Positions 1 through 11,300 of a DNA stretch of 64,000 nt are shown here, one piece after another. Source of the stretch: Tetradesmus obliquus (lineage: Eukaryota; Chlorophyta; Chlorophyceae; Sphaeropleales; Scenedesmaceae); the NCBI GenBank assembly GCA_030272155.1, contig CP126201.1:5070501-5134500 (forward strand). The letters are read 5' to 3'. Each line of letters opens with the position of its first letter. The stretch's first letter is position 1. The notes under the pieces were generated by a model that was not told the DNA's origin, did no database searches, and saw nothing but the letters and a program-made list of their open reading frames with translations. The position numbers and the translations under genes are program-made.

Positions 1-1364
1 GCTGCCTTCCAGCTGCTGCCGGCTGGCCTCATGCTGCTGCTGCTGCGCATGCTGCTGCCTCACCTGGAAGGTCTTGCCGCATCCCTTGGGCCCCCATATG
101 CCCAGGATGAGCGGCACCTTGGTGGTGGCGCTGATGGCGCCCTGGTCAGCCAGGTAGTTCTTGGTGATGTGCATCTGGGGGGGGGGGGGGAGCAGCAGCA
201 GCAGTGTGTATTTAGATGCCTTGTGGGCCAGGTAGCTGTTGCTGAGGTGCATCCAGGTATGGCAGCAGGCGGGGGCAGGGCTGCAGGTAGCCAGGGCAGG
301 AGGCAGGGACGATTTGAGACATGGCTGGTGCAAGCACACAGACATTTAGAGTCACTTCCAGCAAACATGCGGCCTAAACCAACACAACCCGTGCCGCTGC
401 CAACACAGGCGATCACTGCACGCCAACGCCAGCCGCCGCCCAGCACGCTGCCTCCATGCAGCAGGCGCTGTGCCCTGAGCCAGACCTTGTGTGCACACTC
501 GCCACTCATCACTCACCGCCACTTTGTCCATGAACTGCGGCGCGATGTAGTAGTCGCCGATGATGTGCTTCAGCGTGCGCGCCTCCCAGCCCCGCAGGCT
601 GCCGTCCGCGATGTCGCTGCGGTGGCCCAGCACGTTGCCCGTGAACAGGCTGTCGATCATGCCCACGTTCTGCCCCGCGTCCACATTCGTGTTGTAGTCC
701 GACTGCCCCAGCTCAAACAGGTAGTCGCCAGCAGAGCCGCCGCTCGCCTCCTTGGCATCCCAGCTGCTGCGGAACCGCTGCCCGCTGCCGCTGCTGCTGC
801 TGCCGGCATCTGCAGCAGGCGGCGCGGCCGGCGCGCCGCTGCCGCCGCTGCTGCTCCTGCCAGCAATGTAGTTGCTGAAACGGCCGCCCTCAGGCTGCTG
901 CTGCTGCTGCTGCTGTGGCTCAGGTTGCTGCTCCTGCTGGGGTTGTTGCGGCGGCTGTTCGCGCTGCTGCTGCTCCCGCTGCTGCTGCTCGCGCGGCGAG
1001 GGCGAGGCTGAGCGCCAGCTGCTGCCCGCGGTGTACTTGGAGAAGCGGCCGCTGGAGGTGGGCTCGTCACCTGCACTGCTGCTGCTGCTGCTGTCATATA
1101 CCGGGCTGGGCGAGCGCCAGCTGGGAGATGTAGGCCGGCTGAGCGGCCGCTGTGGTTGCTGCTGCTGCTGCTGTTCCTCATCAGCGTAGCCGCTCCTGCT
1201 GTCTGGCCGCTGCTGTGAGAGGTAGGAGCCCCACCTGCCCCCTGCTGGGGAGGGAGGCTCAGCAGCAGGAGGCTCCGGATCACGCCGCTGCTGCTCACGC
1301 TGCTGCTCCTGCTGCTCCGGTGAAGGCGTGGAGCGCCAGCTGCTCCACCTACTGCTGCTGTCAG

Positions 1365-1406
<42 letters not shown>

Positions 1407-4400
1407 GGCGTGCGGGTGGTTCCTGCGGCTGCGGGCTTGGTGAGCGCTGCCTGATGCGCTGGATCTGGTCGGCAAAGCGCTCACTGCCGCTGCTGCTGCT
1501 GCTGGCTTGCGGCTGCTGCTGCTCCTGTTGCGGTGGAGGCACCAGCCCACCCTCAGGCTGCTGCTCCCAGGGAGGGATAGGTCCCTGCTGCTGCTGCTGC
1601 TGAGCGCGGGATGAGATGATGCCATCCCAGCGTGAGCTGCCATCAGCGCCGCCGACATCGCTGCCGCTGCTGCTGCTGGGCTGCGCATCCTGGCGCCTCC
1701 ACTGCTCCTCCCGCTGCTGCTGTTGCTCGCGCCGCTGCTGCTGCTCCACGTCCGGCGTCTGCTGCTGCCGCCGGTCGATGAACAGCGTGGCGGGCGGCTG
1801 CGGCGGCTGCTGCTTGCGCGCAGCAATGATGGAGGCCCACCTGTCGCCGGAATCAGCCTGCTGCTGCTGCTGCTGCTGCTCCTCCTCCTCAACTGTGGAC
1901 TCAGGAGAAGAGGCAGGAGATGCTGCAGCAGAGGCAGCTGGCGATGCAGCCGGCGATGCAGCCGGCGAGGCCGCTGCTGATGCTGGCTGCGATGGCGTCG
2001 CTGCAGCAGCAAACCTGTCCTTGAAGACCTTGACCACGGCATCCAGCGGCTGCAGCGGCTTGGCTGGCGGAGCTGGCGGCGGCGGCGGCTGCTCCTGCTG
2101 TTGTGGCTCAGGTGGCGCTGGCGCTGCCGTCTCCTCCACGCGCTTGGCGTACCAGTCAGCAGGGTACACCGGCTGCATGGGCGGCTGCTGCGGCGGCACC
2201 GGCGGCATCAGCTGCTGCGGCTGCTGCACCGGCGGCAGCGGCGCTGCTGCTGCTGCTGCTGGCGCCTCCTCTGCCTCCTCATCTATTGAGGCCCACACGC
2301 TGCTGGTGGCAAAGGTGGAGCCGTACTGGCACTCCGCATGCAGCACGCCTGCTGCCTCACTGGCGCTGCCTGCTGCTGGCTCCACAGTGATGCTGCGGTT
2401 GGGCCCCGCCTCCCAGTCAAAGGTGCCGTCAGTGTTGACCACCACCAGCTGCAGCGGCAGGATGAGGCAGGCAAGGCAGGGCAGAGCACCAGCAGCACAG
2501 TGAGGCGGCTGGTCAAAGCGGCGAGCACGCGTGGATTGCGCTGGACCAGGCCGTCAGTACAACATTCATACATGCATGCATGCACTTGTTCCATGTAACT
2601 GCATCATCTGTGTCTGCCAGCCAGCCAGGACAAGCTATGCACTGGCTGAGCTAGCCCCTGCAGCTGCCACCCCACCCCGCCCCCTCACCTTGAACTCGTA
2701 GCTGCCGGGGGGCATGAGCAGTGTGGTGCTCCACACGTCGCCCTCAGCCCACTGCAGCGGGGGCGCCGCCTCAGGCTCCCACTCGCCCAGCTGCTGCCCG
2801 CCGCCCACAGCCTTCAGGAAGGTGCCAAACTGCGCCGCAAACTTGGTGCTGATGCGCACCTCGCGCCAGCCCTGCTGCTGCTGCGGCACCGCACCAGCAC
2901 CAGCGCCAGCAGGAACTACGGAATAGTCCTCGGAATCGGAGTCTGAGTCGCGCCGCCTGTGCCCGTTTGCGGACGCCTTCTGCTGCCACGGCTCCAGCTG
3001 CTCCGCAGCCTCCTGCCGCTGGTACACCTCAGCCGCTGACAGCTTGCGGCCGGTTGGTGCAGCGCGAGGGGGCCCGCCTGCTGCGTCCTCTGCTGCCGCG
3101 ATGGCCTTGGCTGCTGCCAGTGCTGCCGCGAGGCCTGGCAGCGGCACGTGGATGCGCCTGTTGGCCCCCGGCTCCCACTCCAGGCGGCCGTCCTGGCGCA
3201 CCACCACGTACTGCAGGGGCAGCAGCGGCAGCAGCAGGTGGCAAGGCGCAGGCACAGCATGCAGCAGGTTGGATGAGGCTGTGCAGCTGCAGTTTAGAGA
3301 GCCTGGAGACCGCAGTGTGTGCATGTAAGGGGTGCAGATAACTGGAGCAGCTGCTGTGCAGCAGCTGCTGTGCAGCAGCTGCTGTGCAGGCACAGGCTGC
3401 TTGTGCCTGCTCGCCATGGCATGGGCTGCGCGCTGGTGCGGCACAGCGCTGCCGCTGCTGCTGCGGTGGCTGAGGAGCAGCTGGAGGCTGACTCCCCGCG
3501 CTAAGGCTGCTGCTGCATGCAACGCACCAGGCCCATGCTGTCACCCTGCGGTTGCTACCGCTATGGGCACAGCCAACTTGCTGCAACATCCAGCGCCTGC
3601 ACTTGCTGCTGCTGCTGCTGCTGTGGACCATCCCCCGCCCCGCCCCCCCCCCCCCCCACCTTGAACTCGTGCTCCCCTGCGGGCAGCTCCAGCGTGGCGG
3701 TCCACACGTCACCCTCGCCCCACGTCAGCGCGGGTGCCGCCCCTGCATCCCACGCGCCCAGCTCAGTAGGGCCGCCCACCACCTGCACAGTGGGAGGCAG
3801 CAGCAGGCAGTGACGTATGTAAGGCAGGAGCTCTGGCATGCTGTCGATGAGCAGCAGGCGTGTGCCTTCTGCGCTGCATGGTAGCTGCCACCTGCCAGAG
3901 AGCCCACAGCAGCGTCAAGCATGCTGCACCAGCATGCGCAACAGCCGCCGATGCAGTCCTGATAACATCACAGGCAGCTGCCACCTTGCTTACTCAGCTC
4001 TCCCCCCTGCCCCCCACACAACAAGCGCAACCTCATTCGCCAACTACCTTGCTCGATGCCTACATGCAATTGCAATCACTATGTCAGCGCCACGCAGCCC
4101 CGCACCTTGAGGTACTCCCCGAAGGAGGCCGTGTATGTGGTGGTGAGCTTGACCATGGTGTTGCCCCCGCTGGTCTCAACCAGCTGCGCATCAGGCGGCT
4201 CCTCATCACCCTCCCCGCCACCCTCCCCGCCAGACAGCAGCCCCAGCACCAAGTCCACCTCGCTGCCACTGCCGCTGGCGAGTGCGCCGCCGGGGCGCGG
4301 CACCACCACGCGCCGGTTGTTGCCGGGCTCCCACACTGGCGGGCCCACAGCCTTCACGGCCACAGCCTGCGGGCGGCGATGAGGCAGCGAGTTGAGCAAA

Positions 4401-5340
4401 ACCACCAGAAGCAATGCGCGGGGATTGTGTTTAGGCAGGCTGTCAGCAGTTAAGCTGCACTTGATAGTGGCTGCAGAAGCAGACATGCAAGGAAACTGCA
4501 TCCCAGTGGCATGTTGCTGCAGCAAGCTACATAGCAAACCCAGCGCCAGCTGCCGCCCCCCGCTCCCACCTTGAACTCATGCGCGCCGGGCGGCAGCTCC
4601 AGCGTGGCTGTCCACACGTCACCCTCGCCCCACGTCAGCGCGGGCGCAGCGTCCGGCTCCCAGTTGCCCAGCGCGCGCGTGGCGCCGCACATGAGCACCT
4701 TGTCACCCACCACGCCGCTGAATGTGGCAGAGACTTTCACCATGACGCTGCCGCTGGAGCTGGTCACCACCTCAGCGCTGCTGGGCGCGCCAAAGCCGCT
4801 GTCTCCCGGCTCAAACGCCTCATACGGGGCGGCAGCAGTGAAGAAGGGCTGCGCCGCTGACGAGGCAGACGGCCCCGATGACGCGTGCACGGGTGCGACT
4901 GCGGCGCCTCCCGCAGCGCTGAACAATGACGCCGGCTGGAAGCGCGACAGCGGCGGCACACCCCGCGGGCTGGCGGGGCTGCCAGGCCGCGCGCTGAAGC
5001 CGAGACCTGGTCCGGCGCTGCTGCTGTTGGCCGCCTGGCTGCGCTGGTTGGCTGCTGCTGCGGCGGCTGCTGCTGCCGAGCGTGCCGCGAGGTGTGGCGG
5101 CAGCCCCCCTGCAGCCGACACGGGACTGGCTGGGCGGCTGCCTGCGCCTGACGGCGCGCCACTGCTGCCACCAGCAGCAGGCGGTGGGCTGCCGGCACTG
5201 CTTGGTGGCGCTGCGCTGCTGCTGCCGCCGCCGCTGCTGCTGCTACTGCTGCTGCTGCTGTTGCTCTTTGGCGGCTGCTGTGGGGCTGCCAGCAGCTCAG
5301 AGAGTGGGCGCGGCCTGCCTGGCGGGTAGTAGGCGGCATG
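1..5340 (-). CDS. Triple CBM20 - motif-repeat linker - Rubisco activase fusion (3' partial)
   Basis: Exons, in transcript order: 5340-4570, 4366-4106, 3782-3660, 3210-2689, 2448-517 and 174-64, all joined in phase 0 (1240 codons in the window). Counting from codon 5340, residues ~190-284, ~322-412 and ~492-585 are three CBM20 starch-binding domains, with motifs such as LGNWEPDAAP, WGEGDVWTATLELP, HEFK and WEPGNNRR. Residues ~586-1130 are a Gln/Ser/Pro-rich disordered linker with repeated RW/RF motifs. Residues ~1132-1240 match the Rubisco-activase family: NVGMIDSLFTGN, DYYIAPQFMDKVA, VPLILGIWG and the Walker A GPKGCGKT. The rest of the AAA+ domain lies outside the window. Walker A reads GPKGCGKT rather than the plant GGKGQGKS, so this may be an activase-like paralogue. 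The N-terminus and any transit peptide are unresolved: the first exon stays open upstream to 5670 without a convincing start. The fusion itself is seen; a pyrenoid role is inferred. Confidence 0.88.
745..1848 (-). repeat. Array of degenerate RW/RF motifs in the activase-fusion linker
   Basis: On the minus strand, about nine short motifs are spaced 35-55 codons apart by Gln-, Ser- or Pro-rich spacer: DRWASIIAARK (~1812-1848), SSRWDGIISSR (~1607-1642), SERFADQIQRIRQ (~1447-1488), SSRWSSWRST (~1327-1361), GGRWGSYLSQQR (~1207-1242), SPSWRSPSP (~1101-1140), SGRFSKYTAGSSWRS (~1008-1056), GGRFSNYIAGRS (~849-892) and GQRFRSSWDAK (~745-783). The shared core is a small or acidic residue, Arg, Trp/Phe, then an aliphatic or aromatic residue 3-4 positions on and often another Arg. 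Further upstream, DWYAKRVEE (~2145) also resembles a W-basic motif. The motif residues are kept while the spacers are low complexity, which argues for selected binding motifs. Confidence 0.75.
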
Positions 5341-8300
5341 CTGTGCCCAGCAGGGGACGATGCAAACAAAGGAGCAGGGCACAGGCATGTCAGGCCTGCG
5401 CTCTGATGCTATGCAAGGATACTGCTTGCGTGCAGAGAATGTGCAGAGCTCAGGACTTGTTATTGCTACATGTGGGAGCTGACATGTGGAGCTGCACAGC
5501 ACGGTGTGCTGAGCCTCATGCAGCAGCCACAAGGATACGCGTGCGTGTCCTGCCGCCACAGTGAGCAGTTGCAGCATGTAGGCAAAAGCATACACACCAC
5601 CCCAACAGTGTCTTGATGCCAAGCACAGCCTCTGCTTCATGAGTGACATATGGAAATTGAACTGCTGCACTTACCCCAAGCACCAAACGGCGCCTTCTGC
5701 ATTTGGGGGAGACTGAACTGCGCAAGCCTGCACGCAGACAGCAGCATGAGGCGTCAGTGTGTTTGGTGTGACAGGCTTGAAGAAGCGCCACCAGCATCTG
5801 CCTAACTCGTGCTGCAGCTGGATCTGAGATATTGAGTAGCCGAATAATGGCATGGGCTTTCTGAACAAGACCAGGGTGACTGTGCACAACCCCGAAACAT
5901 GGTATGCTTGCCACATTGCAGCCACAGTTGTGCTCCATAAACATTTGATTTGTAATAAGTAGTCACGACTGTACCTATGCGGGAGCCTGCTGCCCGGTAA
6001 TGCTGTGGCACCGTTCGTGCACTGCCAGCACCCAGAGGATGGCCACGTTGCATGGCTGCCCCAGAGTTGCAAAATTAGCTTGTTTTCCACTATTTATAGA
6101 TTGTCTCGGACATGCAAAACACAGTGTAAAGCTCGCGGCCTTTCGCGACTGTATCTGCTATCAGGGTGACCGACCACTTGCACCCAGCTGCCAAATGCAA
6201 TAATGATAGTATGGCGGCAGTATCACCAGAGCTCGGGCATGCCCGTAATGTTGTAGACTTCTATGCAGAACCCCAGCTCCGAATGCTGCATTTCGCGTAA
6301 GCAGCCTTAAAAGTGGATTTAACGCTTTCTGTACGTAGTTTTGCTGGTGCTCAAAATGCCATATTCCAAGCGCGCGCGATCAAGCTCGCTTTCGTACTGT
6401 TTTGCGAGTCCAGAGCCGGCAACAACGGACAACAGGGTTTGTCCAGCAAGCAGCTGAATATGCTGTTTCAAAATAGCCTGAATTGATTGAGGTTTACCGT
6501 GGCGTTCAAGTACCTAGCTCAAGTGCAGCAGTTGCGCATCCACCAATACGTAGCCGACAGCACTGCTGGCGCAGTGCGCCACGATTGGTGGGGCAGTGGC
6601 TAGCGACTGTTCATTCAGACGCCCGTAGCTCCGAGTTCACGCAGAATCAGACCAACCAATGAAATTGACCAGGCTTGTTACCTACAGGGCAGTCACTGCA
6701 TCAGGCATGGCTGACTGCAGCGCTGCAGCTGCCAGCACAGTCACTGTGTTGCCACTGAGTGGCAAGTGGCAGGGTGCTTTGATACGAGCCGGCAAGCCAC
6801 CAACCATGCAAATGCCTGTTCGGTAGCACCTGAACCTAAATTGAAAGACAGCGCGCCAAGCATCATGATTGTCTATGCAAAGCAGGTGAAGCAGAAACCC
6901 CTTGCCTGCTAGCGTCCAAGCGTCGACACTCTCTCATCATCATGCCAGCACAGCCATACGTAGGTGCACACAGCATACAAAAGCGCATCACTGACGACCA
7001 TCATCAGCGACACGAGGAAGCTAAAGCTATGCAACACCACTTCATGCTGCACGGCCTGACTAACGAGAATGTGTAGAAAAAGCAGCCACTCTAGTGCAAA
7101 ACAGCCGTTGCTTGAACAGTCCCGCCCGGTGCTTGCCAGCCAGCCCAGCCCAAACTACCGCGCCACACCCCCTGAACCCAACCCAGCACCCCTGTGAGGC
7201 TGTGCCAGGCCATATATATTAAGCTGGCCACCTGGCACATGCATCATAGCCCATGACACGGCTCAGCCGCAACAGCGTACCCTCCTCACCCAGCATCAAG
7301 CCTTGCGGCAGGCAGCAGCACAGCAGGCACGGATGGCTGCCGCAACAGCAGCAAGGCACCCGCGCCTTCTGCAGCGCCGCCGCACGGGCCCCTTCAAAAC
7401 ACCCACAATGTGCGGGCAATGCGCAACTCAGTGCTGATGCGGGCGCGCAGCCATTAGCAGTAACAGTGACCAAGTGCTGCGCAATCAACCTTCGATGACA
7501 GCAATCAACATATACCAAGCCCCCCCTGTTGTGACAGAAGCTGCATGTCGCATTGAAAGAGTGCGTCAATACCTTGCTGCACACAGTGCCAGGCACCCCC
7601 AAACCGCAAGCGCCTGGCGCCTGTGTGCTGCTTATTTCTAGTGCTGTGCCGAGCCGCTGTGCTGTGGCTGGCTGGCTGGCTCTGCCGCATCACCCAGCAC
7701 CACACCAACTTCACGGCACACAAAGAGCTACACCTAGTGATGGAGGCGCAGCGCAACTGGAGCGCAGCATATCTGCATGATCAAATGGCAGCATGTGATG
7801 CTGTGACAGTTCCGTGAACTCGATAAAGGTACGTGCAGTTTGAAGGGCGGCTGGCGCCAGCCAAGCGTGGCGTGAGGCGCCAGCTCATGGCTTGGAGAGC
7901 GGATGCGCCCCGCTGAAGTGGCAGCCACTGCTGAGCAGCAACTGGCCTCCTCAGACTGCTGTTGCTGCTGGCTTGAATGATCTAGCATACACACAGCGCA
8001 GCTTGCAGGTCACCCAGAGCACATGCAGCGACGCACCATCGGTGCGCACAACATCAGGTCAGCCAACACCTCACGAGACAACAGCAGCAGAACAAATGGT
8101 GCTGCTGCTACTGTCCCAGTGAGAGTGACACGACACAACATCCCAGAATGCACAAATCCAGCTGCTAAGAGATCCACCCCCAGGCCTCACCGAGTTCCTG
8201 CTGCCATAGCCAGTAGCAGGCGCACATGCCATGCGCATGTGCCCACTGCCCCCTCCCTCAGCACATACCTAGCCAGGCACATGCTCGTGCAACACCAACA

Positions 8301-8393: not shown

Positions 8394-11300
8394 CTAGGCC
8401 GCCTTGGTCTTCTGGCGCAGCGTGTAGTACACCAGCAGCCGCAGCGCCACCAGCATGCCAAACAGCACGCCCAACTCCAGCGCGGGTGACGCGTTGGGGT
8501 CGGTGGGCAGCTGCAGCGCCGCCTGCAGGTCAGGCACGCTGTGGCAGGGCGCGGCAGCGGGGCCTGCTGCTGCTGCCTCGCCGCTGCCCAGGCCGGATGC
8601 GCCGCAGCTGTAGTAGGTGGCCCCGGCAAACTCAATCTTCAGCAGCAGGTTGCTGTGCGGAAAAACGGCAGGGGCGAAAGCAGGCAGCAACAGAAGAGTG
8701 AGCAAAGGCCTTATACGCGCTTGACGCATGGGCACACACGCCAGCATGAAAACAGCCGACAATACAAGTAACTGCGCTTTAACAGGCACCGGCATGCTAC
8801 GAGAGGAGCAATCCATGCGCCGCAGGCCCGCAGCAAATAGGCTCTGTTGCTGTGCTGCGCAGGGTCTGTCCAACCAGCCAGCCGTGCCACTCACAAGCCC
8901 CAGTACACGAAGGACAGGTAGCGTATCCAGCTGATCCATGCGGGGATGCCCCTCACGTAGTAGCCCCCCACCAGCATGAAGCCAAGCATGATGATGCTGG
9001 CCACAGTCTGTGGAACAAGGGAGGGGGGGGGGGGGGGGCAGCCGAAACAGCAGCAGCAGCAGGCGTTACTCATGTGTTGTTGGGGCGTGCCACATGCTGC
9101 TGCAACACCGAATGCATGCCCAGTCCAGGCACTGGCTCGCCCGCATACAGGTAGGCAGAGCTGCCCACTACAGCGCATGACACTGCACTACGTCTGCCAG
9201 TGCAGACTGGTAAGGGCCACGCCACCAGCAGGCATGGTATCACGGCTCCGCATACAGGGCTGATGCCACTGGCTCATGCTGCTGCCCTGAGCACTGCCCG
9301 GCTGCCTCACCTGGGCCGTCTTGGGGTTCATGAAGGCCACTCCCAGCAGCAGGCCCATGGACTGGGCCACCAGCACATTCAGCACCTGGCAACAGCAGCA
9401 GCAGCAGCAGCCGTAAGGTCAGCTCAACGCAGCACAGCGCAGGCAGCGATGCCCTGGCTTCAACGCTGCAATGTGTGTCACTCAGCACCACCCTGGCCGC
9501 ATGGCAGCCCCACCACGCTGCTGCATTGCGTGCTGTGCTGCTGGCTAAACTCCATTGCTGCCCTCACCAGTGCCGCGAGGTTTGACAGGAAGGCTGCTGC
9601 TGTGAGCCGCAGCCCTCCCATGAAGTAGATGATGACCACAAACAGCGCCGGCAGCGCGCAGTCCATTGGCAGGTCGGACAGCGCGCTAGACACGTAGAAG
9701 GCTGACACGCGGTACCTGCGGTGACACAGCAGCAGCAGGCAGCAGCAGCAAGCGTCAGTGACAATGCGCGTCCAGAAGCATGCGCCAGCTCAGCACGCAG
9801 CGCATGCGATCAAGCTGACTGCCATTGCTGCCAGCTCACGACTTGTGGGGCTCAACCGACTAGCACCATGTAAGTACACCGTCAGCGCAATCAACTGCCC
9901 ACCCAACCAGCCCAGCCTTCAGGTCTGCGCGTCACCCCGCCGCTCACGGCCTATGGACCCAGCCACCAACATGCAAGTACATGCCAACGCAGAGTCCTGA
10001 CCACCCTGCACCCCACCCCGCCAGCCGCTCACATGCCGCTGGCGCGCTCCTTGAGCAGCATGCGGTAGTCGTTGGGGAAGGTGAACAGGCTGGTGAACAG
10101 CGCGGTGAAGGCGGGGAACAGCAGCTCGAAGAACAGCAGGCCCACCACGTCGCTGGCGGCCAGCAGGGAGCCGCCGCGGCCGCGCTGCCACCAGAACATG
10201 CCCGTGATAAGCGCCACAATCACGCCCTGCAGGAAGCGCTGGCTGGAGAGGGACTCAAAGCGCTTCACCTGCGGGGTGCGGCAGCAGGAATAATTCAGAT
10301 GTCAGCGCACATCTCACTGATGGCATTGGTGGAGCTGCAGCATCGAGCTCCACAGCTCGCTGACAAAGCAGGCCAATGAAGCAGCAACTTACGCTCGTCG
10401 CGCTGCACACCGCCTTAAACAGCATCAGCATCCGGCCCACCTTGATGTGCCGCTGCAGCAGCACGCGCAGCTGCGTGCTGTAGCTGGCGCCGCCCCTGTC
10501 AGCCAGGCCCATGCCCGCCACCAGCTGCCCGCCACAGCCCTTGCCAGCGCCAGCAGCCGCCTCGATGTCGCCCGGCGCGCCAGCCCACAGGCTGCTGCTG
10601 CTGCGGCTGCGGCTCCAGATGCGCGTGATGCTGCGCCTGAACTCGGGGGACTCGCCGCCCTCCTCCTCGTTAGCAGGGTCACTCAGCTCGTCGCTATCGC
10701 CAGCAGCAGCAGCAGCAGCCTTGCCGTGCTGCTTGGGTGACTCAGCGCCGGCCTTGTCCCCGCCCATGTCAGCCAGGCCCAGGAAGCTGCCGGCCTTATG
10801 CAGGCTGCGCTCAATTAAGCTGCCGCCGCCGCCCAGCCGCCGCTTGCCGTCGCCTGCTGCTGCCTTCTTAGCCGCCGGCGGCTCCAGTGCCAGCTGCAGG
10901 TCAGCCAGCTGCTGCGGCTCGCCTGCAAAGCCGCCCGGGTGCTTGCGCTTGTACGTCTCGTAGCTGCTGTACAGCGCCTGGATGGCAGCAGGGCCAGACA
11001 GCGGAGCAGCAGGCACGCCGTGCGCTGTGCCTTGCTGCTGCTGCTGCTTGGCCTGCCTGTCGTGCTGCTGCGCGTCCTCGCCCTCCTCGCCTGCTGCCAG
11101 CGCCTGCTGCTGCTTGTACAGCGCCTGCTGCTGCCCCACTGCTGCTGCTGCTGGTGCGAGGCGTGAGAAGTCGCCCCCCTCCACCTCGCCCTGGGCCAGG
11201 TCTAGCAGGAAGTCAGCCACGTTGACGCCGTACGGCATGGCAAAGCCCAGCCCAGCAAACCACGACACCACCTGCGGCACAGCGCAGCGGGCGAATCACG

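Follow-up and report, generated by a model that had tools for sequence, protein, structure and literature searches.

The window analyzed here is a 64,000-nt stretch of the Tetradesmus obliquus genome (C11:5070501-5134500). At its left end lies a minus-strand gene that extends past the window's left edge and whose encoded chain runs from three CBM20 modules, through a 535-residue linker rich in Q, S, and P, to an AAA+ module of the Rubisco activase family. Ten exons can be joined, six in the window and four beyond it (the genome searched comprises 104.7 Mb in 17 contigs). All nine introns have GT/AG borders, eight in phase 0 and the last in phase 1, and the joined frame holds 1526 codons and a final stop, with no internal stop. 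Its features are as follows (window positions unless C11 or residues are given).

5675..5797, minus: candidate first exon, beginning with ATG, 41 codons, basic and Cys/Ser-rich, donor GTAAGT in phase 0
4570..5340, minus: exon 1 of the model, an S/A/P/G-rich N-terminal region and about three-quarters of CBM20-1; AG/GT borders, PF00686 over cut-off
4106..4366, minus: exon 2, end of CBM20-1 and start of CBM20-2; PF00686 once spliced, no Pfam match for the ORF alone
3660..3782, minus: exon 3, middle of CBM20-2; PF00686 once spliced, and alignment to 1ac0
2689..3210, minus: exon 4, end of CBM20-2, spacer, and about the first three-quarters of CBM20-3; PF00686
517..2448, minus: exon 5, end of CBM20-3, linker, and start of the activase-like region; open for 644 codons
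64..174, minus: exon 6, Walker A GPKGCGKTF
C11 5070339-5070136, minus: exon 7, beyond the left edge of the window
C11 5069753-5069523, minus: exon 8, beyond the left edge
C11 5069043-5068902, minus: exon 9, beyond the left edge
C11 5068652-5068369, minus: exon 10, beyond the left edge, ending in TAG
about residues 199-280 of the model, minus: CBM20-1 (PF00686)
about residues 327-408 of the model, minus: CBM20-2 (PF00686)
about residues 500-582 of the model, minus: CBM20-3 (PF00686)

The start exon is putative. The phase of 5675..5797 matches the phase-0 acceptor at 5340, and among the nine ATG..GT phase-0 stretches that pass a composition filter (17 were found), only this one has GTAAGT; placing the start here is nonetheless a guess, and the in-frame ATGs at 5388, 5577, 5640, and 5649 or a farther exon could also serve. 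Further upstream (8394-9187, minus), the next frames resemble by eye the end of an ABC-2 type membrane transporter; Pfam gives nothing for 8394-9065.

A first-pass annotation had described 517-2448 as an intronless exon harboring the second half of a CBM20, a linker of ~545 residues, and the start of a Rubisco activase domain, with Walker A in the next exon and two more CBM20 copies upstream. Most of this description holds. The exon is open throughout and runs 84 residues into the activase-like region, GPKGCGKT lies at 174-64, and the upstream exons supply CBM20-1, CBM20-2, and the first ~3/4 of CBM20-3. Two sizes are revised, as exon 5 contributes only about the last 23 residues of CBM20-3, nearer to the last quarter, and the linker counts 535 residues. 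The AAA+ module is also intact to the left of position 1, where exons 7-10 complete the AAA+ and helical domains, including Walker B and the arginine-bearing RDGRMEKFYW. The domain search of the full translation that the annotation had proposed, extended past position 1, returns PF00686 three times, PF00004, and PF21228, all over cut-off.

Exon 5 is CAG-rich, and one of its other frames stays open for 516 codons, so that an open frame by itself is poor evidence of coding. Support for the frame comes from the genuine domains that it encodes at either end, from the GT/AG introns, all but one of which are in phase 0, and from SSWDAKEA..DYLFELG, a conserved N-terminal stretch of activase-like proteins. 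At the level of sequence, the CBM20-linker-activase architecture is thus confirmed as one frame.

PF00686 scores 167.4 bits over three stretches of the joined product. Spliced CBM20-2 aligns with the glucoamylase starch-binding domain 1ac0 (E 2.2e-10) and keeps W/K/W, the residues of starch site 1; W/K/W also occurs in CBM20-1 and CBM20-3, judged by matching position only. The array is expected to bind starch.

Family and clade of the AAA+ module

The module begins in exon 5 and continues through the remaining exons.

517..768, minus: N-terminal part of the activase-like module (SSWDAKEA..DYLFELGQ..FMDKVA)

The nearest solved sequence is 6z1d (E 2.9e-94), and 4w5w is matched at E 9.9e-93; these are the activases of Nostoc and Arabidopsis, respectively. 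Pfam identifies PF00004 (57.2 bits) and the helical domain PF21228 (86.5 bits), whereas the sole NCBIfam match, CdvC, lies far below its cut-off (21.5 bits vs 650). These sequence matches settle the family as Rubisco activase. A Walker A pattern, Walker B, TVNNQ, and RDGRMEKFYW are all retained, with Walker A reading GPKGCGKT here versus GGKGQGK(S/T) in canonical activases.

Family membership does not extend to identity with canonical activase. In a tree of 46 rows (the fusion copy and 45 of 148 proteins from two protein searches; the activase encoded on C16 stands outside it), the fusion copy groups with green-algal activase-like proteins in a clade of 30 rows (support 97/99). The eight canonical activases stand apart on a long branch (100/100), with long branches also flagged among other rows, and four land-plant activase-like rows lie outside the green-algal clade and join the canonical rows weakly (87/74). 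The canonical N-terminal stretch RWxG[ML]..SDDQQD is absent from the aligned fusion module. The tree placement rules out a canonical activase, and the domain call of the first-pass annotation stands for the family only. Canonical activases are encoded elsewhere in the genome, on C8 and C16, by match to P0009 and P0011. Of note, the C16 gene has four tandem copies coding REAS(D/N)QIKKG..LF(I/F)NDL at positions 3629-4181 of C16:1816001-1826000.

The short green-algal activase-like proteins, among them T. obliquus P0031, P0130 from the GHRR transcriptome, and Chlamydomonas incerta P0103, share the 97/99 clade with the fusion copy. They differ from it in that PF00686 appears in none of the best 120 of 3765 matches (lengths 281-648), whereas the fusion has three CBM20 modules. 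The rice activase-like protein P0138 has the SSW(D/E)AK region in common with the fusion and is 57% identical to it; Arabidopsis At1g73110 is presumably also a land-plant activase-like protein. The literature searched yielded no tested function for activase-like proteins, and the terms "activase" and "RCA2" are absent from the main text of a TurboID study of the Chlamydomonas pyrenoid (PMC10473203).

Within the clade, the closest partners of the fusion copy are P0029 (GHRQ transcriptome), P0036 (GHRR), and P0038 (metagenome), at 100/99. Their sister group consists of the short copies P0030, P0031, and P0130 (96/91), and all seven group at 96/88. Both sister groups are represented in GHRR and in the T. 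obliquus genome (C11 at 5.07 Mb and at 1.155 Mb), which points to duplication of the activase-like gene in Scenedesmaceae or a nearby group, with one copy in this genome bearing CBM20 modules. At the 1.155 Mb locus, P0031 matches at 87-100% in most pieces and at 54% in one, among the matches listed, and the C-terminal exons of this short gene are tandemly repeated (C11:1152001-1162000, with last-exon copies at 2602-2844, 2335-2517, and 2074-2250 therein).

The short relatives bear on whether the locus could instead hold two adjacent genes, one for the CBM20 modules plus linker and the other a short activase-like gene with a transcript starting in exon 5. The ORFs of P0036, P0030, and P0031 start at MIDSLF and that of P0029 at MHITK; the records of P0029, P0036, and P0038 begin inside the activase region, the two transcriptome ORFs (P0029, P0036) being labelled complete; the short paralogue P0130 has its own leader without CBM20; and repeat-rich DNA can be open by chance, as the second frame of exon 5 illustrates. 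Nevertheless, SSWDAKEA..DYLFELG is conserved and lies upstream of MIDSLF in the same frame, so that translation beginning at MIDSLF would truncate conserved sequence, and no stop interrupts exon 5 from the end of CBM20-3 to the activase-like region. Short models can, moreover, be truncated, since P0031 misses an N-terminal exon, similar to that of P0130, that is present in the T. obliquus genome. Two separate genes are therefore considered unlikely, and the single-chain fusion remains the preferred gene model.

No second protein of this kind emerged from the databases. Two protein searches covered ~5.8 billion proteins, with lengths of ~689-838 residues falling outside both. PF00686 is likewise listed in none of the 28 long activase-family matches in precomputed domains. 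The CBM20-linker part has no match at E <= 1e-8 among the 7996 scored candidates sharing most words; as a negative this is weak, since low-complexity words probably fill much of the candidate list and just those 7996 were scored. A broken or missing public gene model would also hide a fusion. No paper on an activase-CBM20 fusion appeared in the literature searched, and the author of the first-pass annotation was not aware of a described protein with this combination. The fusion rests on one genome, because no relative found carries CBM20 together with activase, and its expression as a single transcript is presumed from the gene model. Activase-family proteins are joined to other domains elsewhere: 15 of the 28 long ones carry rhodanese PF00581, some also WW PF00397 (P0004-P0007, P0012, P0014-P0016, P0018-P0024), and one of the 15 is from Cymbomonas tetramitiformis.

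Linker motifs and the activase tail on C8

The linker separates the CBM20 array from the AAA+ module and carries short motifs in which an aromatic residue follows an arginine, located by pattern scan.

769..2373, minus: linker, 535 residues, aa 585-1119 of the model; Q 17%, S 17%, P 15%, A 12%
1813..1842, minus: (D)RWASIIAARK, aa 762
1603..1632, minus: (S)RWDGIISSRA, aa 832
1450..1479, minus: (E)RFADQIQRIR, aa 883
1321..1350, minus: (S)RWSSWRSTPS, aa 926, including one WRS copy
1207..1236, minus: (G)RWGSYLSQQR, aa 964
1105..1119, minus: WRSPS, aa 1003
1018..1047, minus: (G)RFSKYTAGSS, aa 1027, an exact R[WF][SA][SNK]Y, followed by WRSAS, aa 1037
853..882, minus: (G)RFSNYIAGRS, aa 1082, an exact R[WF][SA][SNK]Y

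Arginine makes up 7% of the linker, and nine of its 19 W/F residues directly follow one. Motif counts were compared with 20000 shuffles of the linker and with 42,517 aa of the other six-frame ORFs of the window. R[WF][SA][SNK]Y occurs twice (shuffle mean 0.0011; 0/20000 reach 2; other ORFs 0), R[WF] nine times (1.35; 0/20000 reach 9; 118), WRS[ASTP][PS] three times (0.02; 0/20000 reach 3; 0), R[WF]..[YILV] five times (0.10; 0/20000 reach 5; 15), R[WF]..[YILQ][IL] five times (0.011; 0/20000 reach 5; 2), and [SN]WR[SAR] three times (0.048; 1/20000 reaches 3; 0). R[WF][SA][SNK]Y was fixed by the copies in activase tails (see below), though the linker was already known when the pattern was written; the other patterns were composed with the linker in view, and the shuffle figures are thus descriptive.

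Seven R[WF] places picked as a core set are spaced 70, 51, 43, 38, 63, and 55 residues apart, and all nine are spaced at 35-70. Both ranges fall within the 20-120 residues that Barrett et al. use for pyrenoid linkers (PMC11570498). The pyrenoid linkers EPYC1 and CsLinker are disordered chains with spaced short motifs (PMC11570498), which the fusion linker, probably disordered by its composition, may resemble. EPYC1 and CsLinker themselves are not known to have a catalytic or starch-binding domain.

The same motifs recur in the genome in and near the canonical activase gene on C8.

C8:5763202-5768880, minus: canonical activase P0009, with a C-terminal extension of ~700 residues
C8:5758078-5760424, minus: tail-only gene, ~3 kb below the C8 activase, same strand
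C8:5778195-5780744, plus: tail-only gene, ~9 kb above the C8 activase, opposite strand

P0009 (OEZ85_014455) matches C8 at 91-100% in co-linear pieces, the longest at 98.5% over 474 residues. Its tail carries copies of GDRW[SA][SK]Y and SWRSxP between repeated small domains, whose Rho_N-like scores are weak and below cut-off, and a tail of this type is also found on P0013, an activase from a metagenome. P0009 therefore has motifs in common with the fusion linker, R[WF][SA][SNK]Y and SWRSxP, but unlike the fusion it has a canonical AAA+ module at its N-terminus, the motifs in a C-terminal tail, and no PF00686 listed. The two tail-only genes, alike by eye, carry RFSSY, RFANY, RWSKY, RWASY, and SWRS of the activase repeat tail. 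A whole-genome search gave no activase match at either, although a diverged domain could escape such a search, and both are candidate Rubisco linkers of Tetradesmus. The N-terminal exon of the short activase-like copy at ~1.155 Mb of C11 has one related motif, GRFDRLIQQR.

Lone motif matches in the genome are meaningless, and only clusters count, because DNA able to code R[WF][SA][SNK]Y falls below its reversed-pattern control in two counts (62 vs 167 and 104 vs 257). An initial, looser DNA pattern that CTG repeats can satisfy as well found 285 places, compared with 149 for its control. Four motifs cluster in the C8 activase tail, four in each tail-only gene, and two, 165 bases apart, in the fusion gene. 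Small clusters also occur on C1, C4, C7, C10, and C14 (from these two counts, the second with the first 100 of its 104 places listed). A possible second CBM20-plus-motif gene on C10 was rejected, as the DNA match, 1.6 kb from a CBM20 match, lies outside any listed minus-strand frame of at least 90 residues.

If the tail of the C8 activase holds Rubisco, the motifs in common would let the fusion protein hold Rubisco too. The literature searched contains no report of R[WF][SA][SNK]Y binding Rubisco; GRFSNYIAGRSS and GDRWASYSRSS are candidate Rubisco-binding linker peptides. It is possible, though doubtful enough to be taken as tentative, that R[WF][SA][SNK]Y and SWRSxP form a Scenedesmaceae Rubisco-binding motif used by the activase tail, the tail-only linkers, and the fusion, and that the activase-like motor, held at the starch face, remodels Rubisco or linker contacts there. 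We know of no other starch-anchored, Rubisco-directed AAA+ protein and no other powered pyrenoid part such as this reading would imply.

The motifs also weigh on a partner other than Rubisco. Plastid CBM20 proteins often work in starch metabolism, and the fusion could be real yet serve there, its CBM20 modules and ATPase acting in granule initiation or in remodeling starch-enzyme complexes. The position of the AAA+ module outside the canonical clade and its lack of RWxG[ML]..SDDQQD would agree with such a role. However, the linker motifs are common to the tail of a canonical activase, which acts on Rubisco by family, and a purely starch-metabolic function is accordingly judged improbable.

Proposed role at the starch-matrix boundary

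On balance, the reading we favor is a plastid protein of ~1570 residues that links the starch sheath of the pyrenoid to its Rubisco matrix by means of CBM20 modules, motif linker, and activase-like motor. Its import into the plastid, its pyrenoid location, its binding of Rubisco and starch, and the target of its ATPase are predictions that reach beyond the sequence. In this scheme, the three CBM20 modules would grip starch, while the linker, disordered by composition, would weakly and multivalently hold Rubisco via aromatic-arginine motifs 38-70 residues apart. At the boundary between starch and matrix, the activase-like AAA+ module of the C-terminus would then act either on Rubisco itself or on its contacts with the linker. 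The first-pass annotation had proposed a single chain that anchors activase at this interface. A single chain in which a linker with repeated motifs joins three CBM20 modules to an AAA+ module of the activase family fits a tether, but because this module belongs to the activase-like clade and canonical activases are encoded on C8 and C16, what is anchored may not be activase proper. In Chlamydomonas, canonical activase belongs to the proteins of the pyrenoid matrix (PMC10473226).

SAGA1 and SAGA2 of Chlamydomonas reinhardtii combine CBM20 with Rubisco-binding motifs in one chain and are located at the starch-matrix interface; their CBM20s bind starch in vitro, and the proteins localize starch to the pyrenoid (PMC13167743). 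The layout is like that of the fusion, with two consecutive CBM20 modules in SAGA2 versus three here (PMC13167743). The likeness drawn in the first-pass annotation thus holds for layout but not for the motif, since the SAGA-type W[RK]..[LIVA] has no match across the fusion's 1526 residues. We take W[RK]..[LIVA] to be the Chlamydomonas Rubisco-binding motif, and because it is unmatched, the link to Rubisco rests instead on the motifs that the linker has in common with the tail of this genome's own canonical activase. To our knowledge, SAGA1 and SAGA2 carry no AAA+ module.

An activase AAA+ module with an added condensate module has a parallel in cyanobacteria. The structures 6z1d-6z1f come from an activase of this group, in which an SSUL domain binds Rubisco and presumably recruits the enzyme to the Rubisco condensate. 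There, the added module is a folded domain and starch binding is lacking, whereas the fusion has short motifs.

The fusion might also be a true pyrenoid tether whose AAA+ module is no longer a motor and oligomerizes only to raise valency. Tethers need valency, and the SAGA proteins are not known to have an ATPase domain. Retention of Walker B, of RDGRMEKFYW, and of the Walker A pattern speaks against this, and we regard loss of motor function as quite unlikely.

How the starch sheath is attached in pyrenoids outside the Volvocales is an open question, for which the fusion gene offers a candidate. SAGAs are said to occur among Volvocales and to be absent from other algae, where, as the authors speculate, functional homologues may pair carbohydrate-binding domains with a Rubisco-binding motif of their own lineage (PMC13167743). 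The fusion gene matches this prediction in another green alga, with an unexpected activase-like motor added. It supplies a specific candidate motif for tests with purified Rubisco, and it may give a functional lead for the activase-like proteins.
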